Source: Streptomyces sp. SID13031
Lineage (GTDB): Bacteria > Actinomycetota > Actinomycetes > Propionibacteriales > Kribbellaceae
Direction: 5' to 3'
Assembly: GCF_010548305.1 (NCBI RefSeq)
Contig: NZ_JAAGLV010000021.1
Location: 62,001-126,000 of the forward strand
Length of the DNA stretch: 64,000 nt
The notes under the pieces were generated by a model. The model had not been told where the DNA came from. It made no database searches and saw only the letters and a program-made list of their open reading frames with translations. Position numbers and translations under genes: made by a program. Shown here one piece after another: positions 1 to 19,000 of this stretch (position 1 is its first letter; each line of letters starts with the position of its first letter).

Positions 1-1294
1 CCGGTATGCCGGCGACCAGAGCGCTCCCGGTGTTGCCGTAGACCGTCTGGCCGGTGATCGACAGGGGCTGGAAGTCCTTGTAGAACGAGGTCTTCTTCGC
101 GGTGAAGTTGATCATGCACTCACCCCAGGCAGCCACCTTGTGGGTGTCGTCCGGCAGCCATTGCCAGCCGGCCGCCTGGTTCGGTGCCGCGGTCGGGCAG
201 GTCGCGACGATGGCACCCGTGTCGGTGGTGTTCACCGTCGGGATCACCTTGTCGGCGGCCGCGGTCTTCCAGATCACCAGCACGCGACCGGGGCTGGCGG
301 CAACGATGTGGTCGATCGTCGTCGCGCCTCTCGGCTTGGCAGGGGTCAAGGTGACCTCGTCCTTGCCGGGCTGGTCCCAGTACAGCGGACCGCTGTACCG
401 CGCCAGCAGGGCCTTGTCGCCGTCGGCCAGCAGCAGGGTGCTGCCCCGGCGCGGGGTCGGCAGCGCCTTGAGGTCGCCACCCGATACGACGCTTGCGCCG
501 CCCTCACTGCCCAGGATGACCAGCGGCGACGGACCGAAGAACTGGACTTCGGCCGAGTTCGGCAGCTCCAGCTCGATCGCCTCGGCACCGTCACCGGCCC
601 AGTAGTACAGGGATTCCGGCGCGACCACGGCCACTACGGACTTGCCGTCGACAGTGGTGTAGACCGGAGTCTCCGCGCCACGCGGCACCTTGTCCTGCCA
701 GAGCACCTTGCCGTTGCTGTCGAAGACGGCGATCTTCTCGTCCGGCGTGATGATCGCGACCTCGGTGCCTTTGGGCGAGACGGCGGGGTTGGTGCCCTCC
801 GCGAGGTTCACGGTCCAGCTGGCGTTGGCCGTCCAGCCCGGTGGTACCGGCCGCGCAGCGAACTGGTCCGGACCGACACTCGGCGCGGACAGCTCCGGGA
901 GCTTCGGCGACACGGTCGGTTTGGTGATGTCGTCGGACGGCGGCCGCAGGACGACCAGATAGATCACCGTCGCCGCGATCAGTACGCCCGCCAGCGCGGT
1001 CGCCACGATGATCGGCCAGATCGGCTTGTTGCTCTTGGGATCGATCTCGACCGACTCGACCTGGCCGTCCGGGTGGATGATCAGCGGCCAGGACGCGCCG
1101 TCCGACTCGACCGCCGTCGCCTTGACCGGCCGGCCCAGCTGGGCGGCCCGCTCACTGACGAGCTGGATCGCCGCCTGCCGGGGGTCGTGGTGATTCACCG
1201 GATGACTGCGGCCGGCGATCTTCACCTCGGCGTTGTGGTCGTCGTACAGCCGGATCGTCACCTTCGGCCAGGACGGAATGCCCTTCTCAGCCAC
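1..1294 (-). CDS. Membrane-anchored protein with extracellular beta-propeller-like domain (partial, 3' end outside window)
   Basis: The reading frame runs open from a GTG at 1294 to the window edge (431 codons), so the C-terminus is missing. The start is supported by GAGAGG a few bases upstream. Residues 1-90 form a hydrophilic cytoplasmic domain, 92-115 are one strong membrane segment, and the rest is outside the cell. The outer part has repeated short beta units (for example 'AVSPKGTEVAIITPDEKIAV' and 'VLWQDKVPRG') like a PQQ/WD-type propeller. It is transcribed away from the secretion-like operon starting at 1543, so it may be an accessory or sensor protein of that machine. The propeller call is inference from repeat spacing; no catalytic motif is visible. 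Confidence 0.7.
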   Translation of the reverse strand, partial: MAEKGIPSWPKVTIRLYDDHNAEVKIAGRSHPVNHHDPRQAAIQLVSERAAQLGRPVKATAVESDGASWPLIIHPDGQVESVEIDPKSNKPIWPIIVATALAGVLIAATVIYLVVLRPPSDDITKPTVSPKLPELSAPSVGPDQFAARPVPPGWTANASWTVNLAEGTNPAVSPKGTEVAIITPDEKIAVFDSNGKVLWQDKVPRGAETPVYTTVDGKSVVAVVAPESLYYWAGDGAEAIELELPNSAEVQFFGPSPLVILGSEGGASVVSGGDLKALPTPRRGSTLLLADGDKALLARYSGPLYWDQPGKDEVTLTPAKPRGATTIDHIVAASPGRVLVIWKTAAADKVIPTVNTTDTGAIVATCPTAAPNQAAGWQWLPDDTHKVAAWGECMINFTAKKTSFYKDFQPLSITGQTVYGNTGSALVAGIP

Positions 1295-1542
1295 GGTGAC
1301 CTCTCATTCCAGCCACAAAACTCCCTCGTTAGACCTTCTCCGACCAGGCCGTTCTAGCATGTCGTCCGCCCGTAACTCATGCTTCCGCCCGATGGCATGC
1401 CAATACGCGAGCCGGCCCGGCTCGTCTGACCCCGACAAGGGGGTAGAAACATCCTCGCCTGTGGATGGGTCACGCCAGTACACCCGGATAGCGAGAGAAT
1501 ACTGTGGGCGACAGCCCGTGACACGCCGCGAGAGGAGGGGCG
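1295..1542. promoter_or_regulatory. Divergent promoter region of the secretion-like locus
   Basis: This 248-base gap separates the minus-strand anchored protein from the plus-strand operon. It contains no credible gene. A GAGGAGGGG ribosome site lies just before the ATG at 1543. I see no strong palindrome, so the promoters are inferred only from the divergent layout. Confidence 0.4.
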
Positions 1543-2178
1543 ATGACGCAACCGCAGCAGAACCCGTGGACTCGGCAACAACAGCCGGATCCCGCTCTGC
1601 AGGAGGCTCAGCAGGGCCCACCTCGGCCGGCGGACCTGACTCCGCGCGGGCCCGCGACGCCGCAGCACGGCGTGGTCGCGCCTGCTGAGGACCAGCGGCT
1701 GCCCAAGTTCGCCATCCCCGCTGCCGACACCCTCTGGTGGGTGGGCGTGCACGGCGGGTCCGGCGAGACGACGATGTCGCAACTGCTGCCTGGTACCAGG
1801 GCGTCCGGCCATCGCTGGCCGATCCCGCCGCCGCCGGTGCCGACGCCGGTGGTGCTGGTCGCGCGGACCCACGGATCGGGTCTGCGGGCGGCGCAGCAAG
1901 CCGCGATCGAGTGGGCCTCCGGCGTGGTCCAGGGAGTGTCCGTGCTCGGCCTGGTGCTGATCGCCGACGCGCGCGGTCGGTTGCCCAGGGTTCTCGACGA
2001 CTTCGCCGACATCGTCGGCGGCGGTGTCCCCAGGGTCTGGGATATTCCCTGGATCGAAGAGTGGCGAAGGGGGGAGGATCCCACCCCTGACAACACCCCG
2101 GACGAGGTTTTCGAAGTCCTTGAGTCCATCTACGCTCTTCGCGCGTCGAATCCGGCGAGTTACCCCGCCCCTTACTGA
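1543..2178 (+). CDS. DUF6668-like protein with a degenerate P-loop
   Basis: The 211-residue protein has a Gln/Pro-rich disordered N-terminus (1-50) and then a compact alpha/beta domain. At residues 68-77 it reads GVHGGSGETT, which looks like a ParA/MinD-type P-loop in which the catalytic lysine is replaced by Glu. Later segments (VLVARTHGSG, VLGLVLIADARGRLP) fit a Rossmann-like core. It is the first gene of the secretion-like operon and is preceded by a strong ribosome site. I recall similar proteins being named DUF6668 next to SCO6880-family genes; this was not checked. ATP hydrolysis is doubtful given the missing lysine. Confidence 0.65.
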   Translation: MTQPQQNPWTRQQQPDPALQEAQQGPPRPADLTPRGPATPQHGVVAPAEDQRLPKFAIPAADTLWWVGVHGGSGETTMSQLLPGTRASGHRWPIPPPPVPTPVVLVARTHGSGLRAAQQAAIEWASGVVQGVSVLGLVLIADARGRLPRVLDDFADIVGGGVPRVWDIPWIEEWRRGEDPTPDNTPDEVFEVLESIYALRASNPASYPAPY

Positions 2179-2192
2179 AAGGCACCACCGCA

Positions 2193-2462
2193 ATGATGCT
2201 GTTGGCACACCTGATTCCCGACCTGATCATGGGCAACGGCGGCGAGCCACCGCCCGGATCCGAGAAGCTGCTCAAGGTCGTCGACTGGGTCCGCTGGATC
2301 GCCTTCACCGTCTGCATCCTCGGCATCCTGATCGCCGGCGCGATGATGGCCGTCGGCCAGCGCCGTGGCGAGGGTGGCGAGCACGCCGCCCGGCTCGGTT
2401 GGGTCCTCGCGGCCTGCGTCGTGATCGCGTCGGCCTCGCTGCTCGTGGGCGCGCTCAAGTGA
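2193..2462 (+). CDS. Small two-TM VirB2/TrbC-like membrane protein
   Basis: At 89 residues with two membrane segments (about 31-50 and 67-87) joined by a short charged loop (GQRRGEGGEH), the protein has the size and topology of VirB2/TrbC pilin-like subunits. It follows the previous gene by 14 bases and has GAAAGG about ten bases upstream. Position near the head of a type IV secretion-like operon supports the pilin-like reading. There is no clear signal peptidase site, and sequence similarity is too weak to assert a pilus. Confidence 0.6.
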   Translation: MMLLAHLIPDLIMGNGGEPPPGSEKLLKVVDWVRWIAFTVCILGILIAGAMMAVGQRRGEGGEHAARLGWVLAACVVIASASLLVGALK

Positions 2463-2506
2463 CGTTGCTCAACCCGTTCCACCCGGCCGCCGGAGGCTGA
2501 TCCCAA

Positions 2507-3376
2507 GTGGGACTGTTCAGCCGGGACCCTGACTCCGATTCCGGAGACGGCAGCGCCGGGGACGACGGATCCAGCGCCTGGCAGCAGCGCGGATTCGTCG
2601 CCTCAGCGATCGTCGTCGGCGCCGTGGTCGTGTGTCTGGTGGTCTGGCTCTTCGCCCGGGGCGGCAACACCCCGGCGAGCCAGCCGTCGACGCCGACCAG
2701 TAGCACCAGCGCCGTCCCCACCGAGCAGCCCACCGACGACCCCAACGGCCCGCCGGCGACTCCTTCCGGCCCGCAGCCGACCGGTACTGCGACCAGCACG
2801 CCGACCGCGCGCCCGAAGCCGGGTGTCGGCGGCTGCAAGAGCATCAGCCAGAACCAGCGGATCCCCAGGACGACGCCGACCGCGGTGACCTGGGAGTTCG
2901 ACTCGGACATGTTGATCCCGACGCAGCAGGAGGGTGGGCCGGCGGTGATGGACAGCATCGGAGTCCGCTCCTGCTTCGCGCACTCGCCGACGGGCGCGGT
3001 ACTGGCCGCGTTGGTGACCCTCGGCCAGATCCGCAATCCCGATCTGACCCTGCCGGTGCTGCGGCAGCGCTTCGTGAACAACGCGGGCCTCAAAGTGGCG
3101 CTGGCCGAGGGCAAGGCGACGCCGCCGACGCCGGGGCAGACCAAGCAGGTGGCCCAGTTCACCGCCTTCAAGGTGCTCGACTATCTGCCGCAGCGCGCGA
3201 TCATCTCGGTCGCCGTCCGGATCGACGACCGGAACGTGGCCGCGATCCCGGTGACGATGGTCTGGGCAGGCGGTGACTGGAAAGGCTCGTTGCAGACCGA
3301 CGGCAGTTTCAACGGCGCGGTCGAGCCCGACCTGCTGCAGTCGATGACCGGGTACGTCGGGTTCGGGGGCGCGTGA
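2507..3376 (+). CDS. Single-TM protein with extracellular NTF2/VirB8-like domain (putative)
   Basis: This 289-residue protein starts with GTG. A short acidic cytoplasmic tail precedes one membrane segment (about 29-48), a long Pro/Thr/Ser-rich linker (50-105) and a folded outer domain from about residue 118 to the end. The architecture matches VirB8/TcpC proteins of Gram-positive type IV systems. The outer domain (ending in 'DWKGSLQTDGSFNGAVEPD') reads like an NTF2-type fold, but this is inference from pattern only. Its stop codon overlaps the start of the next membrane gene, so the two are translationally coupled. Confidence 0.55.
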   Translation: MGLFSRDPDSDSGDGSAGDDGSSAWQQRGFVASAIVVGAVVVCLVVWLFARGGNTPASQPSTPTSSTSAVPTEQPTDDPNGPPATPSGPQPTGTATSTPTARPKPGVGGCKSISQNQRIPRTTPTAVTWEFDSDMLIPTQQEGGPAVMDSIGVRSCFAHSPTGAVLAALVTLGQIRNPDLTLPVLRQRFVNNAGLKVALAEGKATPPTPGQTKQVAQFTAFKVLDYLPQRAIISVAVRIDDRNVAAIPVTMVWAGGDWKGSLQTDGSFNGAVEPDLLQSMTGYVGFGGA

Positions 3377-4236
3377 TGATCCCGCTGATCAATTGCTGGT
3401 GGCCGCCGAACTGGGACGACTGCATCACCGAGTACCTCGGCAAGGCCGTCAACGTGGCGATCGGCGGCTTCTTCTCGCTGATCTTCGAGGCGATCAAGTC
3501 GATGGTGGTCGCGGCCGTCGTCGCGGTGATGAAGGCAGTCGGCTTCCTGTGGCTCAAGATCGAGTCGCCGGATGTCCGCGGCAACGAGACGATCGGCTTC
3601 ATCACCGGGCACACGTACTACATCCTGGCCTTCATCGCGACGCTCGCGGTGATCTTCGGCGCCATCAAGATGGCCGTCTCGCAGCGCGGTGAACCGGTCC
3701 GCGACATCCTCAAGAGCCTGATCACGATGGCGATGGTGTCGGCCGGCATCACCGGCTTCAGCGCGCTGCTGATCGAGGCCTCGGACGAGTTCTCGAACTG
3801 GATCATCGGCCAGGCACTCGGCGGCCACACCTTCCAGGCCAGCCTGGACGCCAAGCTGACCGACCCGCTCAAGGGTCAGGTCGGGCTGGCGCTGGTGATC
3901 CTGATCGGCATCCTGATGGTGATCAGCGGGCTGATCCAGTTGGCGTTGATGATCATCCGGTTCGGGATGCTGATCCTGCTGATCGGGATCGTGCCGCTGA
4001 CCGCCGCGGCGACCAACACCGAGATGGGGATGATGTGGTTCAAGCGATCGATCGCCTGGCTGGCCGCGTTCGTGATCTACAAACCGGTGGCCGCGCTGAT
4101 CTACGCCACCGCGATCAAGCTGATGTCGGCACCGGCTGACGACACACTCAAGGTCATCACGGGCGTGACGATGATGGTGATGGGAATCGTCGCCCTGCCC
4201 GCGCTGCTGCGCTTCGTCTCCCCGAAGGCGGCTTGA
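3373..4236 (+). CDS. TrbL/VirB6-like polytopic membrane protein, copy 1
   Basis: This 287-residue protein has about six hydrophobic segments and no long soluble domain. It could start at GTG 3373 or ATG 3376, either of which overlaps the previous stop. A middle section (ILAFIATLAVIFGAIKMAVS, QRGEPVRDILKSLIT, EFSNWII) aligns closely with the next gene, making the two tandem paralogues. In type IV systems TrbL/VirB6 proteins form the inner-membrane channel platform. Here that role is inferred from topology and neighbours. Confidence 0.7.
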   Translation: MMIPLINCWWPPNWDDCITEYLGKAVNVAIGGFFSLIFEAIKSMVVAAVVAVMKAVGFLWLKIESPDVRGNETIGFITGHTYYILAFIATLAVIFGAIKMAVSQRGEPVRDILKSLITMAMVSAGITGFSALLIEASDEFSNWIIGQALGGHTFQASLDAKLTDPLKGQVGLALVILIGILMVISGLIQLALMIIRFGMLILLIGIVPLTAAATNTEMGMMWFKRSIAWLAAFVIYKPVAALIYATAIKLMSAPADDTLKVITGVTMMVMGIVALPALLRFVSPKAA

Positions 4237-4237
4237 G

Positions 4238-5743
4238 ATGATCAGGATCGCGCTCTGCGCGGGCAGTTGGTACGACTGCCTGCTGGGTTGGGTCAAGGAA
4301 GCTCTCGGAACCGCCGTCGGAAAGTTGATCGAACTCGTGTTCCAGCCGATTCTCGACGCCCTGGCCGAAGCCGTGGCCAACATGTTCAGCACCATCGCGA
4401 CCTTCTGGGTCTACATCCCCACCCCGGCGGTGGGCAGCGAGGCCACCGGCGCCCCGGCCGGCGACACGGTCGGCTGGATCTGGACCCATACCCAGTACAT
4501 CGCCATCTTCGTCGCCGTCCTCGGCGTGATGGTGGCCGCGATCCAGATGGCGTTCACCCAGCGCGGCGAGAGCGCCCGCGACCTGCTCCGCTCGCTGATC
4601 ACCTTCGGGGTCGCGTCGGCGTTCAGCATCGCGATCGTCCAGGCGCTGGTCGCGTTCGGCGACCAGTTCGCGAACTGCATCGTCACCACGGCGGTGCGGG
4701 GCGCCAACGACTGGCAGTGCGTCGACCTCGACCAGAAACCGGCCGTGCTCGAGGCCGGCAACGGGTTCCGCGACACGATGAAGGGCGTGATGGGCTTCTC
4801 GGCCACGGCCGGCACGGTCGGTATCGGGCTGATGATCACGATCGGCATCCTGACCCTGCTCGCCTCGGTGATCCAGGTCGTGCTGATGGTGGTCCGCAGC
4901 GGGATGCTGATCCTGCTGCTGGGCGTCCTGCCGATCGCGGCGGCGGCGACCAACACCGAGATGGGCAAGGCCTGGCTCAAGCGGATCATCTCCTGGCTGC
5001 TGGCCTTCATCCTCTATAAACCGGTCGCCGCCCTGGTCTATGCGACGGCGATCATGCTGGCGTCCAACAACGGCCACGGGTTCAACTTCGACGACGTGCC
5101 GGACCCGGCCGGACGGCAGATCATGAACATGGTCGTCGGCGTCGTGATGCTGGTGCTCGCCCTGTTCGCGCTGCCCGCGCTGATGCGGTTCATCGCTCCG
5201 ATGGTCGCGGCGACGGCCGGCTCGGCCGGCGCCGGAATGATCGCGGCCAAGATGATCGGCGCGGACAAGATCGGCGAGAAGGTGAGCGACTCCACCAACA
5301 CCCAGGGCGATGGCCCGACCGGCTCGCGGAACGTCGGCCGGCCGAGTCAGCAGCCGTCGAGCCCGAGCGGGTCGCAGAATTCGGCACCTCAGCCCAGCGG
5401 CGGCGGTGGGGGTGGCGGCGGCGGCGGAGGTGGCGCTGGAGGTGGCGCCGGAGCCGGTGCTTCAGGTGGTGCGTCAGGCGGCGCGGCGGGCGGTGCGGCC
5501 GGGGGTGGTGCAGCGGCCGGTGGTGGCGCGGCCGCAGGTGGTGCTGCCGCGGGTGGTGGCGCCGCGGCAGGTGGTGCGGCCGCAGGTGCCGGCGCAGCGG
5601 CGGGTCCGGTCGGCATCGCGGTGGTCGCCACCGCGGCAGCCGTCAAGAAGGGCATCGACGTGACCAAGGACGCGGCCCAGGCGGGCGCGAGCGAGACGAT
5701 CGACAACGACTCGATGGATGAGGGACCAAGTGGCAGCGGCTGA
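4238..5743 (+). CDS. TrbL/VirB6-like polytopic membrane protein, copy 2, with Gly/Ala-rich tail
   Basis: The 501-residue protein starts one base after copy 1. Residues 1-330 repeat its fold: 'FTQRGESARDLLRSLIT' matches 'SQRGEPVRDILKSLIT', and 'NTEMGKAWLKRIISWL' matches 'NTEMGMMWFKRSIAWL'. From about residue 345 the protein changes character: a Ser/Pro/Gln linker, a poly-Gly run and then many GGAAAGG-type repeats up to about 450, before a short charged end. Long Gly/Ala tails on TrbL-like proteins are known in actinobacteria. The tail is probably cytoplasmic or disordered; its function is unknown. Confidence 0.7.
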   Translation: MIRIALCAGSWYDCLLGWVKEALGTAVGKLIELVFQPILDALAEAVANMFSTIATFWVYIPTPAVGSEATGAPAGDTVGWIWTHTQYIAIFVAVLGVMVAAIQMAFTQRGESARDLLRSLITFGVASAFSIAIVQALVAFGDQFANCIVTTAVRGANDWQCVDLDQKPAVLEAGNGFRDTMKGVMGFSATAGTVGIGLMITIGILTLLASVIQVVLMVVRSGMLILLLGVLPIAAAATNTEMGKAWLKRIISWLLAFILYKPVAALVYATAIMLASNNGHGFNFDDVPDPAGRQIMNMVVGVVMLVLALFALPALMRFIAPMVAATAGSAGAGMIAAKMIGADKIGEKVSDSTNTQGDGPTGSRNVGRPSQQPSSPSGSQNSAPQPSGGGGGGGGGGGGAGGGAGAGASGGASGGAAGGAAGGGAAAGGGAAAGGAAAGGGAAAGGAAAGAGAAAGPVGIAVVATAAAVKKGIDVTKDAAQAGASETIDNDSMDEGPSGSG

Positions 5744-7238
5744 CAACATCCGGAGCGTCCCGCGGACGTACGGGAACTGGCGCCAGCCGGCCTCGGCCGG
5801 TATCGGCGGCCTGGGGTCGCTGGGCACCGGCATCATGATGATCGGCCTGGTCATCACCATCATCACGATGACGGCCGGCGGTCTGATCCCGGCGCTGATG
5901 GTGTTGCTGGTCGTCGGCGCCGTCCTGCTGCTGTTGATGACCAAGGACAAACACAACCAGTCCGCACTGCAACGGCTCTCGACCCGTATTGGATGGCAGC
6001 GAGCAAAGATGGCCAAGCACAACGTCTACCGTTCCGGTCCGCTCGGCCGGACGCCGTGGGGCAAGTTCCAGCTGCCCGGTCTGGCGGCGGCCTCCCAGCT
6101 GAGTGAGTACAAGGACTCGTACGGCCGGCCGTTCGCGTTGCTCTTCTACCCGAGCACCCGGCACTTCACGGTGATCATCAACGCCGAGCCGGACGGCGCA
6201 TCCCTGGTCGACGAGGACCAGATCGACGTCTGGGTCGCGCACTGGGGTCAGTGGCTCGCCTCGCTGGGCCACGAGCCGGGCATCATCGCCGCCTCGGTCA
6301 CGGTGGAGAGCGCGCCCGACACCGGGATCCGGCTGCGCCGCGAGGTCCTCAACAACATGCAGGAAGGCAGCCCGGCGATCGCCCGGGCGATGCTGACCGA
6401 GGTCGTCCAGACCTACCCCGAGGGTTCCGCGCTGGTCTCCGCCCGGGTCGCGCTGACTTTCAAGGGCACCGACCGCAGTGGCAAGCGGCGCAAGGAAGAC
6501 GACATGGGCCGTGAGCTCGCGTCCCGGCTCCCGGCGCTGACCCAGAGCCTGAACTCCACCGGTGCGGGTGCCGCCCGTCCGGTCACCGCTCAGGAGCTGT
6601 GCGAGACGATCCGGATCGCCTACGACCCGGCCGCCGCCGGACTGATCGACGAGGCCCGTAGCCAGGGCATGTCGCCCGAGCTCCAGTGGACCGACGTCGG
6701 CCCGGCCGGTGCGCAGTCCTTCTGGGACAAGTACCGGCACGACAGCGCGTGGTCGGTCACCTGGCAGATGACCCAGGCGCCGCGCGGTGAGGTCTTCTCG
6801 TCCGTACTGTCGCAGCTGGTCGGTCCGCACCCGGACATCGACCGCAAGCGCGTCACACTGCTCTACCGCCCGCTCGACGCCGCTACCTCGGCCCGGATGG
6901 TCGAGGCGGACAAGCGCAACGCGTCCTTCCGGGCGAGTACCTCGTCCCGCCCGTCGGCCCGGTCGCTGGCCGAGGCCAGAGCAGCCGACCGGACCGCGCA
7001 GGAAGAGGCCCGCGGTGCCGGTCTGGTCAACTTCGGCATGGTCGTCACCGGCACCGTGATGTCGGCCGAGCAGATCCCCGACATGGTCGCCGCGATCGAC
7101 AACCTCGGCGCGACCGCCCGGGTGTTGCTGCGTCCGGCGTACGGGTCGCAGGACTCCGCCTTCGTGGCGGCGCTGCCGCTCGGGGTCGTGCTCCAGAGTC
7201 ACCTGTCGGTACCGGCCGGCCTCCGGGAATCGCTATGA
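5730..7238 (+). CDS. SCO6880-family protein: VirB3-like membrane hairpin fused to a VirB4 N-terminal-like domain
   Basis: I chose GTG 5730 because AGGG sits six bases upstream; an ATG at 5718 is also open. Two membrane segments (about 33-49 and 52-70) recall PrgI/VirB3. The remaining 430 residues are soluble. The C-terminal part (NFGMVVTGTV, LRPAYGSQDSAFVAALPLGV) strongly resembles the end of the VirB4/TraC N-terminal domain, which in classical VirB4 is followed directly by the ATPase. Here the ATPase is the next gene, 16 bases downstream. I infer a VirB3 plus VirB4-N fusion with VirB4 split in two. The SCO6880 name is from memory. Confidence 0.7.
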   Translation: MAAADNIRSVPRTYGNWRQPASAGIGGLGSLGTGIMMIGLVITIITMTAGGLIPALMVLLVVGAVLLLLMTKDKHNQSALQRLSTRIGWQRAKMAKHNVYRSGPLGRTPWGKFQLPGLAAASQLSEYKDSYGRPFALLFYPSTRHFTVIINAEPDGASLVDEDQIDVWVAHWGQWLASLGHEPGIIAASVTVESAPDTGIRLRREVLNNMQEGSPAIARAMLTEVVQTYPEGSALVSARVALTFKGTDRSGKRRKEDDMGRELASRLPALTQSLNSTGAGAARPVTAQELCETIRIAYDPAAAGLIDEARSQGMSPELQWTDVGPAGAQSFWDKYRHDSAWSVTWQMTQAPRGEVFSSVLSQLVGPHPDIDRKRVTLLYRPLDAATSARMVEADKRNASFRASTSSRPSARSLAEARAADRTAQEEARGAGLVNFGMVVTGTVMSAEQIPDMVAAIDNLGATARVLLRPAYGSQDSAFVAALPLGVVLQSHLSVPAGLRESL

Positions 7239-7254
7239 CCCAACGGGAGTCGTT

Positions 7255-10032
7255 GTGAGCAAGGAAAAGAAGCCGGTCGACCCGATGCGCGGCGGCCGCC
7301 GCCCGATGCCGCGTGGCTGGCCCGGCCCGGCCCGTGGCTACTCGACGTACTTGCAGGCCCCGCAGGAGTGGCGCGGCACGACCGTCCAGGTCTGCGGCAT
7401 GTGGCCGTTCTCGGCCGGCACCGGAAGCCCGATGGTCGGCGTACCGATCGGCCGCAACATCCTCTCCGGCGCCACCATGTGCTGCGACCCGATCAGCTGG
7501 TTCATGCGCGCCAAACTGATCTCCAACCCCTCCGTCTTCGTCCTGGGCAAGCCCGGCTTGGGCAAAGCACTCGACGTCGAGACCTTGATTCCGACGCCGG
7601 ACGGCCTCCGGCGGATGGCGGATCTGCAGCCGGGCGACTTCGTGTTCGGCGCCGACGGGTTGCCAACGGCAATCGTTGCGGTGTCCGAGGTGATGACCGA
7701 TCGTGAGTGCTGGGAACTGACCTTCTCCAGCGGTGAGACGATCGTCGCCGACGCGGAGCACCTGTGGGTGACGGAGACAGTCGAAGACCGCCGACGAGCC
7801 TGGGTCGAGCGGAATGTACCGCGCAAGCGGCTTCCTGCCGGGACGGACACCGACCTTGCGACGGTCGGCGCGGCGCGAACAAGGCTCGGCGCCGAGGCGA
7901 TCTCAGTTCGCGACCTGACCAGGAACGATCAGCGCGCGCGGACGCCTGAGAAGGCGCCGGTGACGACGGCGCGGCTGGCATCCTCGCTGGTCGCCGGCGG
8001 CGAGGCCAACCATGCCGTCCGCGTGATACCAGGACTGGTCCTGCGGGAGGCAAAGCTCGCGCTCGACCCGTACGTCCTCGGAGCCTGGCTGGGCGATGGA
8101 CACAGCGCGGGACCGAGACTGACGACGATGGACCAAGGAATCGTCGAGCGAATCCGAGCCGCAGGTATCGAGTGTGAGCCGGCAACCGGGCATCTGCTCT
8201 ACCAGTTGACGATTCCGGGGACCTACCGACAGAAGGGGGTCGGCTTCACGGCGGTCCTCCGGCAACTCGGCGTACTGGGAGACAAGCACATCCCGACGTC
8301 GTACCTTCGTGCCTCGGATCGGCAGCGTCGAGAACTGCTCGCCGGTCTGCTCGACACGGACGGCACGGTTTCCCCCGCCGGCGGGCAGGTCCAGTACACC
8401 TCGACCTGTCGACGGTTGGCGGAGGATGTGCTCGAGCTCATCGCCAGCCTCGGTTACCGTCCTACCCTTCGAGAAGGCCGGGCGATGCTGGCGGGCCGCG
8501 ACTGCGGTCCGAAGTGGACAGTTGGTTTCACCACCACCGACGAGGTGTTCGGCCTCGAACGCAAGCACGTTGTCCATGCGGAACGGACCATCGGCAATCC
8601 GGCGCGGACCGCGCGTCGCTATGTGGTCGCGGCTCGTAAGGTGGCGTCCAGACCCGTGCGATGCATCCAGGTGGCCAATCCCGACGGCCTCTACCTGGCC
8701 GGACGAACCTTTATCACCACGCACAATTCCACGATCATTCGGCGGATGGCGCTCGGTCTGGCTGGGTACGGGGTTATGCCGCTCGTGTTGGGTGACCTGA
8801 AGCCCGACTACAAGGACCTGGTCGTGGCCCTTGGTGGGCAGGTGATCGAGCTTGGTCGTGGTCGTGGGCATCTGAACGTGCTTGACCCGGGTGAGTCCCG
8901 GCGGGCGGCGCTCCGGCTGACCGGTAGTGCGCGGCAGGCGATCCAGGCCGACGCGCATGGCCGCCGGTCGACGATGGTGTCCGCGCTGATCTCGATCATG
9001 CGGTCCGCGCCGCCAACCGACCGCGAAGAGACCATCCTCGACGAGGCCCTCAAGGTGCTCGACGAGCGCCACGAGGGCACTCCGGTACTCCGTGACCTCC
9101 TGCAGGTCGTCCAGGAGGCGCCGGACCGGGTCCGGGACGTCGCGCTCGACCGGGGCAGCATGGACCGGTACAGGCAGATCACCGAAGGGCTGGAGGCGTC
9201 GCTGATCGGTCTGGTCGGCGGTGGCCGGCTCGGTGAGATCTTCTCCGAGCAGACCGACCAGCCGATGAAGATGGACCGGCCGGTGGTCTTCGACGTCTCG
9301 AACATCGACGACTCCGAGACCAACCTGCAGGCCGCCGTGATGCTGGCCTGCTGGTCCTACGGCTTCGGCGCGGTCGCGGTCTCGCAGGCTCTCGCGGACG
9401 CCGGCCTCGAGCCTCGGCGGCACTACTTCGTCATCCTCGACGAGCTCTGGCGAGTACTACGGGCCGGCCGCGGCCTGGTCGACCGGGTCGACGCGCTGAC
9501 CCGGCTGAACCGGCAGCGGGGGGTCGGGATGGCGATGATCTCGCACACGATGTCGGACCTGCTGGCCCTGGAGCACTCCGAGGACCGGATGAAGGCGAAG
9601 GGTTTCGTCGAGCGCTCCGGGATGGTGATCTGCGGTGGCCTGCCGCGCGCCGAGATGGAGAACCTGACCGCCGTCGTACCGCTGTCCGGCGAGGAGCAGA
9701 ACATGCTGATCGGCTGGCAGGACCCGCCCGCGTGGGACCCGGCCACCGGTGAGGAGGCCGCACCGCCCGGACGGGGAAACTTCCTGGTCAAGGTCGGTGG
9801 CCGCCCGGGCATCCCGGTGCACGTCGGGCTGACCTCGGTCGAGCGCGAGATCAACGACACGAACAAGCTGTGGAAGACGGGCGCCGACGGCCGGCCGCTG
9901 AAGGTGGAGATCGCCGACGACGGCACCGAAGAAGTGGTCGAGGAGTACACCTTCGACGACCCGGCGATGACGGCACTGCCGCCCCCCGACCCGACCACCC
10001 GCGTGGTAGCCAAAACGGGAGTTGACGACTAA
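7255..10032 (+). CDS. VirB4/TraC-like secretion ATPase interrupted by a class 3 intein
   Basis: The 925-residue precursor starts at GTG 7255 with GGGAG five bases upstream. The host protein is 538 residues once the intein (105-491) is removed. The Walker A motif GKPGLGK ends at residue 104 and resumes with Ser492 after the intein, so the intein splits it exactly behind the catalytic Lys. Walker B is VILDE at 726-730, followed by a Trp. Downstream blocks (GLVGGGRLGEIF, RMKAKGFVERSGM) fit VirB4/TraC ATPases. The N-terminal domain of VirB4 appears to be encoded by the preceding gene. The product should power pilus or substrate translocation at the membrane and can only bind ATP properly after splicing. 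Confidence 0.82.
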   Translation: MSKEKKPVDPMRGGRRPMPRGWPGPARGYSTYLQAPQEWRGTTVQVCGMWPFSAGTGSPMVGVPIGRNILSGATMCCDPISWFMRAKLISNPSVFVLGKPGLGKALDVETLIPTPDGLRRMADLQPGDFVFGADGLPTAIVAVSEVMTDRECWELTFSSGETIVADAEHLWVTETVEDRRRAWVERNVPRKRLPAGTDTDLATVGAARTRLGAEAISVRDLTRNDQRARTPEKAPVTTARLASSLVAGGEANHAVRVIPGLVLREAKLALDPYVLGAWLGDGHSAGPRLTTMDQGIVERIRAAGIECEPATGHLLYQLTIPGTYRQKGVGFTAVLRQLGVLGDKHIPTSYLRASDRQRRELLAGLLDTDGTVSPAGGQVQYTSTCRRLAEDVLELIASLGYRPTLREGRAMLAGRDCGPKWTVGFTTTDEVFGLERKHVVHAERTIGNPARTARRYVVAARKVASRPVRCIQVANPDGLYLAGRTFITTHNSTIIRRMALGLAGYGVMPLVLGDLKPDYKDLVVALGGQVIELGRGRGHLNVLDPGESRRAALRLTGSARQAIQADAHGRRSTMVSALISIMRSAPPTDREETILDEALKVLDERHEGTPVLRDLLQVVQEAPDRVRDVALDRGSMDRYRQITEGLEASLIGLVGGGRLGEIFSEQTDQPMKMDRPVVFDVSNIDDSETNLQAAVMLACWSYGFGAVAVSQALADAGLEPRRHYFVILDELWRVLRAGRGLVDRVDALTRLNRQRGVGMAMISHTMSDLLALEHSEDRMKAKGFVERSGMVICGGLPRAEMENLTAVVPLSGEEQNMLIGWQDPPAWDPATGEEAAPPGRGNFLVKVGGRPGIPVHVGLTSVEREINDTNKLWKTGADGRPLKVEIADDGTEEVVEEYTFDDPAMTALPPPDPTTRVVAKTGVDD
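7567..8727 (+). mobile_element. Class 3 intein with LAGLIDADG endonuclease in the VirB4-like gene
   Basis: The 387-residue intein (precursor residues 105-491) begins with Ala and ends in Thr-His-Asn before Ser+1. The class 3 signature is visible: Trp171 in the DAEHLW block, Cys470 in VRCIQV and Thr489 before the terminal His-Asn. LAGLIDADG motifs at 275-282 (LGAWLGDG) and 362-370 (LAGLLDTDG) indicate an intact homing endonuclease. Its splicing blocks are very close to those of the first DnaB intein (both have EVM, DR, C, ELTFS, ADAEH). Codon use is GC-rich like the host gene. Confidence 0.88.
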
Positions 10033-10196
10033 GTGACCCCCATCCGAACTCCGCACACCGTCTCCGGCGCCCAGGCGGGCGCCTCGCGGCGTTGTCGGAA
10101 ACGGACGATGGAAAAGACATCGCCCGCTTCCTCCGCCTTGCGATCCACCCACCTGAACACCGGAGCCGGCGCACGGACTCCGGATGGAGGTCACTG

Positions 10197-13169
10197 ATGG
10201 CCCAAGGCAGGAAGAGCACCGGCCCCGGCGGCCTGTCGGCGGAATCGGTCCTGGTCTTCATCGGGATCGGTCTGTTCGCGCTGATCGTCGGTGGTACCTG
10301 GGTGGCGACCAAGATCGCCGCCGCGATCAACCACACCCGGCCCATCGGCGACCCGATGAGCAACCTGGTCGACCTGATCAACGGCCGGGTCCGCTGGTCC
10401 GGCGCGGCCACCGGCGTACTGATCCTCGAGATCGTCCTGCTCGGGGTGCTCACCGGCGTCGGCTTCTACCTGGTCGGCAAGGCGAGGAACCCCGGCTCCC
10501 GGGTGGACCGCTCCGCGCAGCTGATGTCGAAGCGGAGCGAGATCTACAAGCTCACCCGGCAGGGCGCTCAGGAGATCGCGAACCGGCTCGGCGCCGGGCA
10601 CGCAGGCCCCGGCGTGATGATCGGCCGGACCGTCCGGGACAACCTCGAGGTCTTCGGGTCCTGGGAAGACATGCACGTCGACATCTGGGGTCCCCGGACC
10701 GGGAAAGCGCTGGCAGCGACCACACCGGTTCTGACGCCGCACGGCTGGGTACCGATCAAGGATCTCGCGCGCGGTTGCCGGGTGATCGGCAGCGACGGCC
10801 ACCCGATCGAGGTGACTGGGGTCTATCCGCAAGGGACTCGTCCGGCTTACCGCTTCCGACTGACTGACGGTACGTCGGTCTTGTGCGACCCGGACCACTT
10901 GTGGACCGTCCGACCAAAGATCAGGGCCGACAAGAAGCACCCCGAGGCATGGCGGACGTGGACCACGCGGCAGTTGATTGATCGTGGTCTGCGCCGTATG
11001 AGCGGTGGAGCCAAGTACTACCTTCCGATCGTCGAGCCAGTTCAGTTCGAAGGTGTGCTGGAGCCGGGGCGGCTGATGGAGGCCCCGCCGCCCGACGGCC
11101 GAGGGCACAACCTCAGCGCACCGGCCGACCGCCCGACCCTGCCGGTCGCGCCGTACCTGCTGGGCGTACTGATCGGCGATGGTGGTCTTCGGTCGGCTTC
11201 GATCCGGTTGTCCACGGCAGAGGCCCAGGACCTTCTGCCTTTACTGGCGCCCCTGCTCCCCGCAGGCGTAACGGCGAAGCCGGTCGCGGGGAGCGCCTAC
11301 GACTGGTCGCTGACGTCGGGCCGGACTGGTCCGCGCAACGCCCTGATGGCGGCGATGCGCGAACTCGGTCTGATGGGGCACAGCTCGCTGACGAAGTTCG
11401 TCCCGCCGGCTTACCTGCTGGCCGCGGTCGAGGATCGGCGAGCGTTGCTCGCCGGCCTGCTCGACACCGATGGTTCGATCGATCAGAGGGGGGTCATCGA
11501 ATTCTCGACCTCGTCGCCGCAACTGTCGGAGGACTTCCGCTTCCTGGTGCAGTCCTTGGGGGGAACGGTGACGACAACCCGGCGCGAGACGACCCACGCG
11601 CCGTCGTACCGATCGCTGGTGCGGCTTCCGGCCGACATCCCGGCACCGTTCCGGCTCCGTCGGAAGCGGGAGCGTTGGGACGAGCTGGCGCCGCACCGAC
11701 GGGTCGCCAGGCCGGTGCGCGCGATCGAGTCCATCGAACCCGAAGGTGAGATGGAGATGGTCTGCATCTCGGTTGCGGCTACCGATGGCCTGTTCGTCAC
11801 CGATGAGTTCATCGTCACCCACAACACCACCTCGCGCGCCGTACCGGCGATCCTCGACGCACCGGGGGCCGTCGTCGCGACCTCGAACAAGCGCGACATC
11901 GTCGACGCCACCCGGGACCCGCGGTCGAAGAAGGGACCCATCTGGGTGTTCGACCCGCAGGAGGTCTGCGGCGAGTCGCCGGACTGGTGGTGGAACCCGC
12001 TCAGCTACGTCACCGACGAGGTGAAAGCGCGTGAGCTGGCGGAGCACTTCGTCGCCTCGCAGCGCAAGGAGGGCGCCCAGACGGACGCCTTCTTCGACTC
12101 CGCCGGTACTGACCTGCTGGCCGGTCTGCTGCTCGCGGCCGCGGTCGCGAAGCGCCCGATCACGCAGGTCTACAGCTGGCTCGCCGACCAGCGCAACGAC
12201 GAGCCCGAGCGCATCCTGCGGTCCACTCCGGGCCTGCAGCTGTCCGCGGACGCGCTGTCCGGCGTCATCAACGCTCCGGACAAGCAGCGCGCCGGTGTCT
12301 ACGGCACCGCGCAGCAGAGCGCCCAGTTCCTGATCAACCGCAAGGTCACCCGCTGGGTGATCCCGGCAGGCCCGAACGACAACCGCCCGCAGTTCAACCC
12401 GCACCAGTTCGTCCGCGAGGGCGGCACGCTCTACAGCCTGTCCAAGGAAGGCGCCGGTACTGCGGGCCCGCTGGTCACCGCGTTGACGGTGGCCGTGGTC
12501 GAGGCAGCCGAGGACTACGCCAAGACGTGCCCGATGGGCCGGCTGCCCAACCCGCTACTCGGCGTACTGGATGAGGCGGCCAACGTGTGCCGCTGGAAGA
12601 ACCTGCCCGACCTCTACAGCCACTTCGGCTCCCGCGGCATCGTGCTGATGACCATCCTGCAGTCCTGGGCGCAGGGGATGGAGTGCTGGGGCGAGCGCGG
12701 GATGGAGAAGCTCTGGTCCGCCGCGAACATCCGGGTGTACGGCGGCGGCGCGTCCGACGCCAACTTCCTCGAGCGGCTGAGCAAGCTGATCGGCGACTAC
12801 GACATCCTGTCCAGCTCGGTGTCGTACAACAAGGGTGAGCGCGGGACCAGCAAGCAGACCCAGCGGCACCACATCATGGAGGTCTCCGACCTGGCCGCGA
12901 TGCCGCCCGGTCGCGCGGTCGTCTTCCCGTCCGGGATCCCGGCGACGATGATCAAGACCGTGCCGTGGATGGCGCGCCCCGACGCGGGCTTGGTGAAGGC
13001 CTCGCTGGCCCACCACGACCCGGGTGCGGCACTGACCGCGCAGGGTGGGGCGAACGCTTGGATCGCGGCCGGTCGCCCGGGGACGACGGCACCGGATGCT
13101 CCGGCAGCCCCGTCCGGCCCGCCGGTCCCGATCTGGGAGCAGACCGAGGAGCAGCGTCGTGGATGGTGA
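10197..13169 (+). CDS. VirD4/TraG-like coupling protein interrupted by a class 3 intein
   Basis: The start at ATG 10197 has a perfect GGAGG six bases upstream. The precursor has 990 residues; removing the intein (171-543) leaves 617. Two membrane segments near the N-terminus (about 15-40 and 78-100) precede the ATPase. Walker A is GPRTGK, split after Lys170 and resuming with Thr-Thr. Walker B is LLGVLDEAAN (Asp792, Glu793). VFDPQEVCGESPDWWWNPL and DLYSHFGSRGI are typical TraG/VirD4 blocks. Such coupling proteins feed DNA or protein substrates into the secretion channel. A 164-base gap separates it from the VirB4-like gene, so it may have its own promoter. Confidence 0.85.
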   Translation: MAQGRKSTGPGGLSAESVLVFIGIGLFALIVGGTWVATKIAAAINHTRPIGDPMSNLVDLINGRVRWSGAATGVLILEIVLLGVLTGVGFYLVGKARNPGSRVDRSAQLMSKRSEIYKLTRQGAQEIANRLGAGHAGPGVMIGRTVRDNLEVFGSWEDMHVDIWGPRTGKALAATTPVLTPHGWVPIKDLARGCRVIGSDGHPIEVTGVYPQGTRPAYRFRLTDGTSVLCDPDHLWTVRPKIRADKKHPEAWRTWTTRQLIDRGLRRMSGGAKYYLPIVEPVQFEGVLEPGRLMEAPPPDGRGHNLSAPADRPTLPVAPYLLGVLIGDGGLRSASIRLSTAEAQDLLPLLAPLLPAGVTAKPVAGSAYDWSLTSGRTGPRNALMAAMRELGLMGHSSLTKFVPPAYLLAAVEDRRALLAGLLDTDGSIDQRGVIEFSTSSPQLSEDFRFLVQSLGGTVTTTRRETTHAPSYRSLVRLPADIPAPFRLRRKRERWDELAPHRRVARPVRAIESIEPEGEMEMVCISVAATDGLFVTDEFIVTHNTTSRAVPAILDAPGAVVATSNKRDIVDATRDPRSKKGPIWVFDPQEVCGESPDWWWNPLSYVTDEVKARELAEHFVASQRKEGAQTDAFFDSAGTDLLAGLLLAAAVAKRPITQVYSWLADQRNDEPERILRSTPGLQLSADALSGVINAPDKQRAGVYGTAQQSAQFLINRKVTRWVIPAGPNDNRPQFNPHQFVREGGTLYSLSKEGAGTAGPLVTALTVAVVEAAEDYAKTCPMGRLPNPLLGVLDEAANVCRWKNLPDLYSHFGSRGIVLMTILQSWAQGMECWGERGMEKLWSAANIRVYGGGASDANFLERLSKLIGDYDILSSSVSYNKGERGTSKQTQRHHIMEVSDLAAMPPGRAVVFPSGIPATMIKTVPWMARPDAGLVKASLAHHDPGAALTAQGGANAWIAAGRPGTTAPDAPAAPSGPPVPIWEQTEEQRRGW
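10707..11825 (+). mobile_element. Class 3 intein with LAGLIDADG endonuclease in the VirD4-like gene
   Basis: The 373-residue intein covers precursor residues 171-543. It starts with Ala, ends in Val-Thr-His-Asn and is followed by Thr+1. The signature residues are Trp236 (DPDHLW), Cys523 (MVCISV) and the Thr before the final His-Asn. Endonuclease motifs are LLGVLIGDG (321-329) and LAGLLDTDG (418-426). It is more diverged from the other two class 3 inteins than they are from each other, yet sits at the same point of the Walker A motif. Confidence 0.87.
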
Positions 13170-13533
13170 GCAGGAACTCTTCTACCCGCACGTCGCGGCC
13201 TTCGTCGAGGACCGCCTGGTCTACCTGTACTGCCGGCGGATCGGCCAGCAGTACATGTGGTGCCCGGAGTGGTTCCGGCATGCCGAGGCGCTGAGCCGGC
13301 TCGACTCGATCTGGCGCGCCTGGGAGCACCTGCGGCTCGACCCGGCGACGGGGATGTCGGTCTGGTGGCGCGACCACGCAGACCCGCACATGCAGGCGCT
13401 GCTGGACCCCGACGGCCCGTTCGCGGCCTGCCGCGGCGTGCACAGCGACTACCCGATCCCACCGCTGCCGGTCGAAGAGCCGCCCGCCGGTCTCTTCTTC
13501 GACCAGCGTCAACCCAACCTGCGCGGCATCTGA
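13159..13533 (+). CDS. DUF4913 family protein
   Basis: The 124-residue protein starts at GTG 13159, inside the end of the coupling-protein gene, with GAGGAG seven bases upstream, so the two are coupled. The block 'MWCPEWFRHAEALSRLDSIW' followed by WEHLRLD and the WWRDHADPH segment is the DUF4913 signature as I recall it. Many conserved Trp and His residues suggest a compact soluble fold. DUF4913 genes are usually the last gene of this type of actinobacterial locus. The molecular role is unknown. Confidence 0.75.
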   Translation: MDGEQELFYPHVAAFVEDRLVYLYCRRIGQQYMWCPEWFRHAEALSRLDSIWRAWEHLRLDPATGMSVWWRDHADPHMQALLDPDGPFAACRGVHSDYPIPPLPVEEPPAGLFFDQRQPNLRGI

Positions 13534-13550: not shown

Positions 13551-13598
13551 GGCGACTGATGCGACCGTACTGCGGCCGCACGCCGGGGATCAGTCGCC
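13551..13598. terminator. Putative bidirectional terminator between convergent genes
   Basis: GGCGACTGAT (13551-13560) and ATCAGTCGCC (13589-13598) form a perfect 10-base inverted repeat around a 28-base loop. It lies between the end of the secretion-like operon and the convergent gene whose stop codon sits in the right arm. There is no T-tract. Confidence 0.4.
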
Positions 13599-14195
13599 GA
13601 TGCCGAAGTTTCGGAGGGCCTTGGGGTCCTGGTCCTTCAGGCGGCGTTGACGTTTGAGGTTCTTGCGGGCGACCGGGGGCTCTTCGGGCGCGTTGCGGAC
13701 AGCCTCCGCGGCGGGCGGCTGCTCGGCCCGGCTGCGTTGCTCGCGAGCTTCCGCGGAGTTCCAGTCGGCCCGGCGGTCGTCGTCGGCCGCGCTGCGGTAG
13801 CGGGAGTCCGCCCTCGCCTGGGCCCGCTCGGCGGCCAACAGGTCGGCAGCCGACTGAGGGTCGTCCCGGCCGGTGGCGCCATCGCGCAACCGCGCTGCCT
13901 GGGCTATTTCGTCGTGGCCCAGCAATCGCTCGTCGGCTGCCCGGGCACGCAAGTAGCTGTGGTTCCGCTCGGCGACGTCGGCGCGGCGCATCGCGTCGGC
14001 CAGCTCGGCGTCACTGTCGCGCTCGACCTGTCGACGGGTGTCCCGGAGTTCGCGCTCCTCGAGTGCGTCCAGCTCAAGCTCCTCGTCGACCTGCTCCCGA
14101 TCCGCCTCGGCGCGCTGAGCTGCCAGTTCCGCGCCCCGCGCCGGCACCTTGGGCCTCCGCGCGGTGGTCTGCTCGTCGTCGTCCGTGTCGGCCAT
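13590..14195 (-). CDS. Hypothetical highly charged helical protein
   Basis: The 201 residues are dominated by Ala, Arg, Glu, Asp and Gln, with almost no aromatic residues until the end. Heptad-like stretches across about 20-150 predict long helices or a coiled coil. There is no membrane segment, signal peptide or known motif. The C-terminus (KNLKRQRRLKDQDPKALRNF) is basic and may bind nucleic acid. It is convergent with the secretion-like operon. I do not recognise the family. Confidence 0.55.
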   Translation of the reverse strand: MADTDDDEQTTARRPKVPARGAELAAQRAEADREQVDEELELDALEERELRDTRRQVERDSDAELADAMRRADVAERNHSYLRARAADERLLGHDEIAQAARLRDGATGRDDPQSAADLLAAERAQARADSRYRSAADDDRRADWNSAEAREQRSRAEQPPAAEAVRNAPEEPPVARKNLKRQRRLKDQDPKALRNFGIGD

Positions 14196-16015: not shown

Positions 16016-19000
16016 GTGAGCGTTGCGGAGTTCCGCGGGGGGTCGGGTAGCGGCAAGGAAGAGCGCAGCCCGGAGATGGGCTTCGACCGCACCCCGCCTC
16101 AGGACCTGGCGGCCGAGCAGTGCGTGCTCGGCGCGATGATGCTCAGCAAGGACGCGATCGCCGATGTGATCGAGACCCTGCGCGGTACGGACTTCTACCG
16201 GCCGGCGCACGAGGTCGTCTTCGACGCGGTCACCGACCTGTACGCCCGGGGCGAGCCCGCCGACGCGATCACCGTCGCCGCCGAGCTGGCCAAGCGCGGC
16301 GAGATGGGCCGGATCGGTGGCGCGCCATACGTGCACACCCTGGTCGCCTCGGTCCCGCTGGCCGCCAACGCCGGCTACTACGCGCACATCGTCCGGGAGA
16401 AGGCGATCCTGCGCCGCCTGGTCGAGGCCGGCACCAAGATCGTCCAGATCGGCTACGCCGGCGAGGGCGAGGTCGACGACGTCGTCGACCAGGCGCAGGC
16501 CGAGATCTACTCGGTCACCGAGAAGCGCACCACCGAGGACTACGCCCCCCTGAAAGACATCATGGAAGGCGCCCTCGACGAGATCGAGGCCATCGACTCC
16601 CGCGGCGACGCCATGGTCGGCGTCCCGACCGGCTTCACCGACCTCGACGAACTGACCAACGGCCTCCACCCCGGCCAGATGATCATCGTCGCGGCCCGCC
16701 CGGCGATGGGCAAAGCCCTGGCCCTCGACACTCCACTACCAACCCCAACGGGTTGGACCACCATGGGCGACGTCGCAGTAGGCGACGAGCTGATCGGTGC
16801 CGATGGCCGCCCGACCAAGGTCGTCGCCGCCACCGAGGTCATGGCCGACCGCCCCTGCTACGAACTGACCTTCTCCGACGGCAGCACCGTCACCGCCGAC
16901 GCCGAACACCAGTGGGTTGTGGTGGGTGAGGCCGGCGCAGTCATCCGTACGACGGTCGACCTGTGGCGGGCGATGGAATCGGACCCCGGGATGACCCCGG
17001 TGATTCCAGGCTCTGCGCCGAGTGAAGTCGTGGGTCACGGCCTGTCGACCGGACTGCCGGGCGAAGAAGACCGCTGGATCGAGTGGATCGAGCCGGTACC
17101 GAGCGTGCCGGTGCGATGCGTCGAGGTGGCCGCCGAAGACCATCTGTACCTGGCCGGCAAGACGATGATCCCGACCCACAACTCAACGTTGGGACTGGAC
17201 TTTGCCAGGTCGGCGTCGATTAAGCATGGGTTGACTTCGTGTGTGTTCTCGCTGGAGATGAGCCGGAACGAGATCACCATGCGGTTGCTGTCGGCCGAGG
17301 CGAAGGTGCCGCTGCACCACATGCGCAACGGCAAGATGACCGATGAGGACTGGGCTCGGCTGGCCCGCAAGATGGGTGAGGTCTCCGAGGCGCCGCTGTT
17401 CATCGACGACTCGCCGAACCTGACGATGATGGAGATCCGCGCCAAGGCCCGCCGACTCAAGCAGCGCCACGACCTGAAGCTGATCGTCATCGACTACCTC
17501 CAGCTGATGACGTCCGGCAAGAAGGTCGAGTCCCGCCAGCTGGAGGTCTCCGAGTTCTCCCGCTCGATCAAGCTCCTCGCCAAGGAGCTCGAACTCCCCG
17601 TCATCGCCATCTGCCAGCTCAACCGAGGCTCCGAACAACGCTCCGACAAACGCCCCATGGCGTCAGACCTTCGTGAATCAGGCTGCCTCACCGCCGATAC
17701 GCGGTTGATGCGTGCCGACACCGGCGCGGAGATCTCACTAGGCGAACTGCTGGCCGCCGACGCACGGGATATCCCGGTCTGGTCGCTCGACGACCGACTC
17801 AAGCTGGTACCGCGCACGATGACTCACGTCTTCCCGAGCGGTGTGAAAGAGGTCTTCCGGTTGAAGCTCGCCTCCGGCCGGGAGATCAAGGCGACGGCCA
17901 ACCACCCGTTCCTCACGTACGACGGATGGAAGCCGCTCGGCGAGTTGGCGCCGGGCGCACGGCTGGGCTCGTTGCGCCATGTGCCGGCGCCGCTGGAGGG
18001 CAAGCCCTGGGATGACGATGAGGTCACCTTGCTGGCTCATCTGCTCGGTGACGGCTCCTTCGTGAAGAGGCAGCCGATCCGGTACGCCAGCATCGACGAG
18101 GCGAATCTGACGGCTGTTGGCGAAGCAGCTCATCGACGTTTCGGTATCACCCCGATCCGCGATGAGTACACCGCTGCCAGGGTCACGACCCTGCGCCTAC
18201 CCGCGCCGTACCGGCTGGCTCGGGGCAAGCGAAACCCGATCGCCGCCTGGCTCGACGGAATGGGTCTGTTCGGCCTGCGCAGCCACGAGAAGTTCCTTCC
18301 TGAGGGAGTCTTCGGCCTGCCGAAAGAGCAGGTCGGCGCCTTCATCCGCCACCTGTGGGCCACGGACGGTTCCGTCCGCTGGGACGAGAAGTACCATCAG
18401 GGCAGGATCTACTACGCTTCGACGAGTCGCCGCCTCGTCGACGACCTGGCCCGGCTACTACTGCGATACAACATCTTCAGCCGTATCGCCAGGACTAAGA
18501 AGGCGGGCTATCGAGACTCGTACCATCTTCACGTCAGCGGTGTGCAAAACCAGACGCGGTTCTGTCGTGAAATCGGTGTTCACGGCCTGCGTGGTGAGAA
18601 GGTGCGGGAAGTTCTCCAGAATCTTGACGGAATCGAGGCTGCACCGAAGCTTGATACCGTTCCTGTCCAGGTCTGGGATCAGGTCAAGGCTGCACTGCGC
18701 GAACAAGGTATGAGCAAGGTTGCTCTCGGTGCCGCACTTGGAAGAAGCAATACGAACAGCCTATTTGTCGGCGCTCCGACAAGGCAACGTTTGTCTGATA
18801 TCGCGCAAGTACTGGATTCGTCTGCGCTTGAGTTGCTCGCGACAAACGATATTTTCTGGGACTCTATCGTGCAGATAGATAGCATTGGTGAGCAGGAAGT
18901 ATTCGACGCCACGGTCCTCGGCAATCATAATTTTGTTGCAGATGGAATTGCTGTACATAACTCACTGGAACAGGACGCCGACGTCGTCATCCTCCTGCAC

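Follow-up and report, generated by a model that had tools for sequence, protein, structure and literature searches.

Members of the genus Kribbella carry at one chromosomal site a relaxase-less type IV secretion system (T4SS), which probably descends from a conjugation machine that a Kribbella ancestor acquired in a single capture and that has been resident since. Because the genus keeps at this site the transfer machinery but not the enzyme that initiates DNA transfer, a plasmid machine has seemingly been captured for a job of the cell's own. We analysed a window of 64,000 nucleotides (contig positions 62001-126000) from an 8.5 Mb genome of this genus, whose nearest named relatives on sequence comparison are Kribbella, on a contig that extends a further 62 kb to the left, together with a sample of 38 Kribbella genomes that includes the source genome.

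The plus-strand genes are all co-directional, in the order DUF6668, VirB2-like, VirB8-like, VirB6a, VirB6b, SCO6880-family, VirB4, VirD4 and DUF4913, mostly with overlaps or gaps of no more than 45 bp and with 164 bp ahead of VirD4. They are flanked by a divergent 467-aa gene on the left and by orfX, a MATE gene and dnaB on the right. The DUF6668 protein (1543-2178; PF20373, E 1e-14) has the P-loop GGSGETT, which is without the lysine, and by this motif may be ParA-like. The 89-aa VirB2/TrbC pilin-like protein (2193-2462) matched TrbC (PF04956, E 1.2e-5) and T4SS_pilin (PF18895, E 2.7e-5), both just below the curated cut-off. The VirB8-like protein (2507-3376) had no Pfam match, and its model showed one transmembrane helix and an NTF2-like domain; in VIA-align comparisons this model scored Z 7.5 with pIP501 TraM and Z 6.8 with Agrobacterium tumefaciens VirB8, values that unrelated NTF2-like proteins equal. 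VirB6-like protein b (4238-5743) matched TrbL (PF04610, E 6.4e-6) above the cut-off, and VirB6-like protein a (3373-4236), for which Pfam gave no match, was assigned from its gene order and its 42% identity to VirB6b. The SCO6880-family protein (5718-7238; NCBIfam NF042935, E 3.4e-174) is predicted from its position and hydrophobic pattern to be VirB3/VirB4-N-terminal-like. Downstream lie an intein-interrupted VirB4-like ATPase (7255-10032; NF045971, E 6e-5; extein 538 aa) with an intact Walker B motif, VILDE, and an intein-interrupted VirD4-like coupling protein (10197-13169; TraG-D_C PF12696, E 4e-35; PF02534, E 4e-19), the sole TraG-D_C match in the genome. The DUF4913 protein (13159-13533; PF16259, E 3.6e-37) directly follows VirD4, as it does in plasmid relatives. 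Gene content and order are as the earlier note gave them, with VirB2-, VirB3/B4N-, VirB4-, VirB6- (twice), VirB8- and VirD4-like genes. A role in anti-phage defence was rejected, since PADLOC returned only a weak match of VirB4 to mad8 (7e-5), which we took to reflect the common ATPase fold.

This gene content bears on the proposal that the locus is a DNA uptake machine like the archaeal Ced/Ted systems, which are chromosomal, relaxase-less derivatives of conjugation systems that take up DNA and contain homologues of VirB4, VirB6 and VirB2 (PMC9905601). However, the block contains no nuclease or DNA-processing gene and retains VirD4, an export coupling protein, and we regard uptake as improbable.

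The divergent gene (1-1294 on the minus strand of the window) starts inside the window and ends 109 bp to its left (full gene at contig positions 61891-63294); the propeller that the note described is supported by structure prediction. The AlphaFold2 model (mean pLDDT 80.8) comprised a small N-terminal domain (residues 12-81), a transmembrane helix (94-116) and a beta-propeller (141-467), with Foldseek propeller matches, BamB among them, at E 1e-8 to 1e-6. The N-terminal domain is nearly invariant across Kribbella. With the ParA-like ATPase that occupies the same place in plasmid pYJND-1 it shares 41% identity (E 1e-13), and it matched the N-termini of the ParA-like ATPases of mobile relatives at E 1e-13 to 3e-10. 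As the N-terminal domain is common to proteins in the same place, the partner domain appears to have been exchanged between a ParA-like ATPase and a transmembrane helix with propeller. The model suggests a bitopic topology, and a role as surface sensor or receptor would fit the predicted shape.

The left flank speaks directly to mobility, as a relaxase or integrase just left of position 1 had been named as the finding that would make the locus an ordinary integrative and conjugative element (ICE). Neither is there; instead the contig carries rpsF, ssb, rpsR and rplI (named by sequence similarity), a small reverse gene and then the divergent gene. The SCO6880 family was present in all 38 Kribbella genomes, and the order rpsF-ssb-rpsR-rplI-propeller-block-MATE-dnaB was identical wherever the retrieved stretch (12-20 kb around each core copy) reached, which answers the question of conservation across the genus raised in the earlier note. 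Elsewhere in the order SCO6880 matches were scattered, frequently with more than one to a genome, and the listed genomes of the sister family had none. In three sister-family genomes (G048, G043 and G058) the site is empty: rplI adjoins MATE, which is followed by dnaB. This comparison sets the borders of the block at rplI and MATE and not, as had been proposed, at a clean end with DUF4913. The block consequently includes orfX (13590-14195, minus strand), a charged protein of 201 aa that is the last block gene ahead of MATE and is missing where the site is empty. In plasmids, an unnamed gene lies ahead of the relaxase in the position and orientation of orfX; homology between the two was rejected, as the similarity found without composition correction vanished once composition was corrected for. 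The absence of a visible att site and integrase also held: the longest word shared between the two junctions was 13 bp, equal to the maximum in shuffled sequence, no recombinase was found among the block genes, and ARAGORN detected no tRNA in the 64-kb window.

No relaxase was found in the block, and a search of the whole source genome for the MOBP (PF03432) and MOBF (PF08751, TrwC) classes, as distinct from MOBQ, MOBV, MOBT, MOBC and MOBH, gave no match. MOBP was detected in one of the 38 Kribbella genomes, adjoining a second, mobile copy in G006, and MOBF in 27. Relaxase-bearing elements are therefore common in the genus, and the resident machine could be a helper channel that moves such elements in trans as they pass through Kribbella; extensive in-trans use of T4SSs has been proposed (PMC3158045). 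However, 11 genomes (the source and ten others) keep the locus without a MOBP or MOBF relaxase, the mobile copies that we examined bring their own SCO6880, VirB4 and VirD4 genes, and genus-wide retention for the benefit of other elements is hard to explain. A helper function is thus unlikely.

The closest known relatives of the locus are MOBP plasmid modules. SCO6880-family matches occurred in 458 plasmid records, and we examined gene order in three plasmids, pYJND-1, pS16-2 and pCBA3105-1. All three showed the Kribbella order of divergent gene, DUF6668, VirB2-, VirB8- and VirB6-like genes, SCO6880, VirB4, VirD4 and DUF4913, followed downstream by the gene in the orfX position, a relaxase and MobC. 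A hydrolase gene lay upstream in two of them, the third record ending before that region. The SCO6880 proteins of pYJND-1 and pS16-2 are 60% identical to that of Kribbella, and the divergent gene of pYJND-1 shares the N-terminal domain of the propeller protein. The plasmids differ in having a relaxase of class MOBP, MobC and, linked to them, a hydrolase of the M23 or C40 type, all missing from the Kribbella block, in having a single VirB6 gene where Kribbella has two, and in having a ParA-like ATPase in place of the propeller, whereas the Kribbella site is fixed and chromosomal. Mobile chromosomal relatives likewise carry a PF03432 relaxase, NikA/MobC, and SLT-NlpC or M23 hydrolases by Pfam. 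In a phylogenetic tree the Kribbella core copies formed one clade (support 100/99), nested in a clade with plasmid and mobile copies (100/100); their position beside two mobile Kribbella copies was weakly supported (91/65). Distances at the locus followed those of housekeeping genes (Mantel r 0.53-0.78, p 0.001).

Other T4SS copies were noted in the genus. A second SCO6880-type copy in G005 (L071, L072) has an in-frame TAG, and by eye its neighbours resemble type I-E CRISPR-Cas. Many Kribbella genomes contain a distant T4SS type (L083-L086 and further divergent copies; SCO6880 match about E 1e-95), in several of them with TrwC encoded no more than some 10-20 kb away, and these distant copies are probably mobile elements.

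Motor proteins of the resident locus evolve at housekeeping rates under purifying selection, and the envelope-exposed parts evolve fast. Median dN/dS against the window genes, from a simple Nei-Gojobori count on high-GC genes that is usable only as a contrast with control genes, was 0.12 for VirB4, 0.15 for SCO6880 and 0.10 for both DUF6668 and DUF4913, compared with 0.14 for the control rplI and 0.105 for the control MATE. On the same count VirD4 (0.32) was less constrained than VirB4, and values were 0.44 for VirB2, 0.47 for VirB6b, 0.48 for the propeller protein, 0.58 for VirB8, 0.64 for VirB6a and 0.64 for orfX. These results contradict a decaying or still mobile ICE passing through the genus. 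Such an element might be expected from the kinship with mobile plasmids and elements and from the relaxase-bearing second copy in another Kribbella genome; however, the locus occupies one site in all flanked genomes, its open frames are intact, its motors have dN/dS near that of housekeeping genes, its distances are vertical and it has no linked relaxase. Together with the left flank and the empty site, this led us to reject an ICE or mobile island, which we consider very improbable. The resident chromosomal T4SS-like machine that the earlier note had envisaged is instead upheld by the fixed site in 38/38 genomes, the empty site in the sister family, the lack of a block relaxase and the purifying selection on the motors.

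The exposed, fast-evolving parts also weigh on a developmental role like that of cmdABCDEF (SCO4126-4131) of Streptomyces coelicolor, in which the machine, sited in the membrane of the mycelium or in septa, would serve differentiation, septation or the segregation of chromosomes, possibly by moving chromosomal DNA, and would not export effectors. The cmd cluster is relaxase-less, has a VirB4-like CmdB and kin of SCO6880, and is required for sporulation and the segregation of chromosomes to proceed normally, while its deletion left transfer of an SLP2-derived plasmid unchanged (PMC2782261). The source genome has a single SCO6880-family copy, which would suit such a role. However, fast-evolving exposed parts are not expected of an internal machine, and Kribbella has retained VirD4 and DUF4913, which we did not find described for cmd, the likeness to cmd being judged from its published description. 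In addition, null mutants of other relatives, SCO6878 and SCO6881, are described as having no such defect (PMC2782261). We view a cmd-like role as possible but doubtful.

The machine may also extend over a second chromosomal site. A VirB6 query recovered a further VirB6 gene elsewhere in Kribbella; in four genomes it lies next to a VirB8-like gene and the surroundings are syntenic. A VirB8 probe, an artificial sequence of 81 aa joined from two VirB8 fragments, whose hits were judged by the match itself and by distance to the main locus, found this satellite pair in 18/18 more genomes, giving 22/22 of those examined. In the source genome it lies in ordinary chromosomal surroundings at G000:C113:145825-147156 (L133:9825-11156), with the adjoining VirB8-like gene. 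Where both sites fell on one contig, the pair was in most cases about 245-260 kb from the main locus. The main loci of K. capetownensis and K. pittospori (L094, L104) are without VirB8, VirB6a and VirB6b, VirB2 being followed directly by the SCO6880 gene. We rejected the interpretation that these are broken loci, as both species keep the satellite VirB8-VirB6 pair. Outside Kribbella, two genomes of another family (G161 and G248; L137 and L138) have a separate VirB8-VirB6 pair, located between a gene and ATPases that were named by eye as DUF4177-like and ArsA-like, as a parallel split T4SS; no relaxase was seen among the predicted genes of 40 kb there, a part of which was searched against families.

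Both ATPases of the source genome are interrupted by inteins that split Walker A and that the earlier note had passed over. The nucleotide-binding motifs of VirB4 and VirD4 are whole, on inspection of the sequences, once the inteins are spliced out. The VirB4 intein has 387 aa (7567-8727, plus strand; GLGK/ALDV...TTHN/ST, slashes marking the junctions) and the VirD4 intein 373 aa (10707-11825, plus strand; RTGK/ALAA...VTHN/TT), each with intact LAGLIDADG motifs. The former is present in 5/38 Kribbella genomes and the latter in 1/38, the source genome, and intein-free Kribbella alleles of both genes align without a break. With the motifs HLW, RCIQV and TTHN/S in VirB4 and HLW, VCISV and VTHN/T in VirD4 (the W-C-T pattern), both fall within class 3 (DnaB-like) inteins, which are defined by Ala1, a W-C-T motif and a terminal HN followed by Ser or Thr. 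The VirB4 intein resembles DnaB Walker A inteins: its N-terminal part matched the solved replicative-helicase (DnaB) inteins 6rix and 6bs8, and it is 57% identical over 68 residues to the Walker A intein in the dnaB of the window and 41% identical over its full length to one in the dnaB of G049. The window dnaB (16016-19147) contains two inteins of its own, a mini-intein of 156 aa in Walker A (16715-17182) and one of 426 aa (17684-18961) with a LAGLIDADG-type region.

The nearest VirD4 intein found was that in VirD4 of plasmid pCBA3105-1, 59% identical and in the same place. This likeness suggests intein exchange between plasmid and resident VirD4 copies; origin by local copying from VirB4 was rejected, as the two inteins of the window motors are 25% identical. 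The intein-bearing pCBA3105-1 VirD4 (L166:12001-14964) has no annotated gene in the record's table, and the plasmid is typed non-mobilizable despite an annotated relaxase and mobC. A ParA-like ATPase beside a T4SS locus in G248 (L073:12450-15989) also has an intein in Walker A, which shares 36% identity with that in the window VirD4.

Going beyond the observed gene content, site, distribution and selection, we infer that a conjugative T4SS was captured between rplI and MATE-dnaB in the Kribbella ancestor and inherited vertically since. It would have lost the MOBP relaxase, MobC, the linked wall hydrolase and any recombinase, and kept the pilin-like VirB2, VirB8, a duplicated VirB6, a split VirB4, and VirD4 with DUF4913; a wall hydrolase may be encoded elsewhere in the genome. 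VirD4, probably with DUF4913, would recruit a substrate other than a relaxase-DNA complex, and SCO6880-VirB4 would power its passage through a VirB6/VirB8/VirB2 channel, while the bitopic propeller protein would connect the cytoplasm with whatever the rapidly evolving outer components contact. The most likely substrate would be a protein, directed toward neighbouring hyphae or cells, with protein export in particular having, by analogy, somewhat less than an even chance of being correct. In the source genome both motors would need protein splicing for whole Walker A motifs. As both motors of such strains depend on splicing at the ATP-binding loop, splicing could be an on-off control, and a tentative wider proposal is a permanent device for protein delivery or cell contact, encoded at two chromosomal sites, in which a propeller replaces the ParA-like ATPase and splicing may act as a switch.

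Most known relaxase-less T4SSs come from proteobacteria, Patescibacteria and archaea. The Kribbella locus adds a clear example that spans a genus of free-living, mycelium-forming Gram-positive bacteria; plasmids still carry the donor family, sister-family genomes show the site unoccupied, and the lost genes can be named. It makes it practicable to study the function of a conjugation machine that no longer has a DNA cargo, and may help account for the unexplained cmd sporulation phenotype of Streptomyces. The literature library that we searched held no paper on a Kribbella T4SS locus and none on DUF4913. Guglielmini et al. (2011) defined a MOBless class of chromosomal T4SSs that have no relaxase, which they interpreted as co-option from conjugation, and recorded few T4SSs in actinobacteria (PMC3158045). 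The Kribbella locus belongs with these systems in being chromosomal, relaxase-less as to MOBP and MOBF, in place genus-wide and under purifying selection. Like it, cmdABCDEF is described as chromosomal, relaxase-less and genus-conserved, with a VirB4-like ATPase and partners that resemble SCO6880 and SCO6881 (PMC2782261). The T4SS of Patescibacteria is likewise monoderm-type, chromosomal, mostly without a relaxase and lineage-wide, but it belongs to another lineage with another gene set and an epibiotic lifestyle (PMC12102498). The archaeal Ced/Ted systems are domesticated conjugation machinery too but import DNA, and no recognizable sequence similarity was reported for their components (PMC9905601). 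MOBless T4SSs are thus already known, with cmd as a known actinobacterial relative, and the Kribbella locus is a new form of MOBless T4SS.
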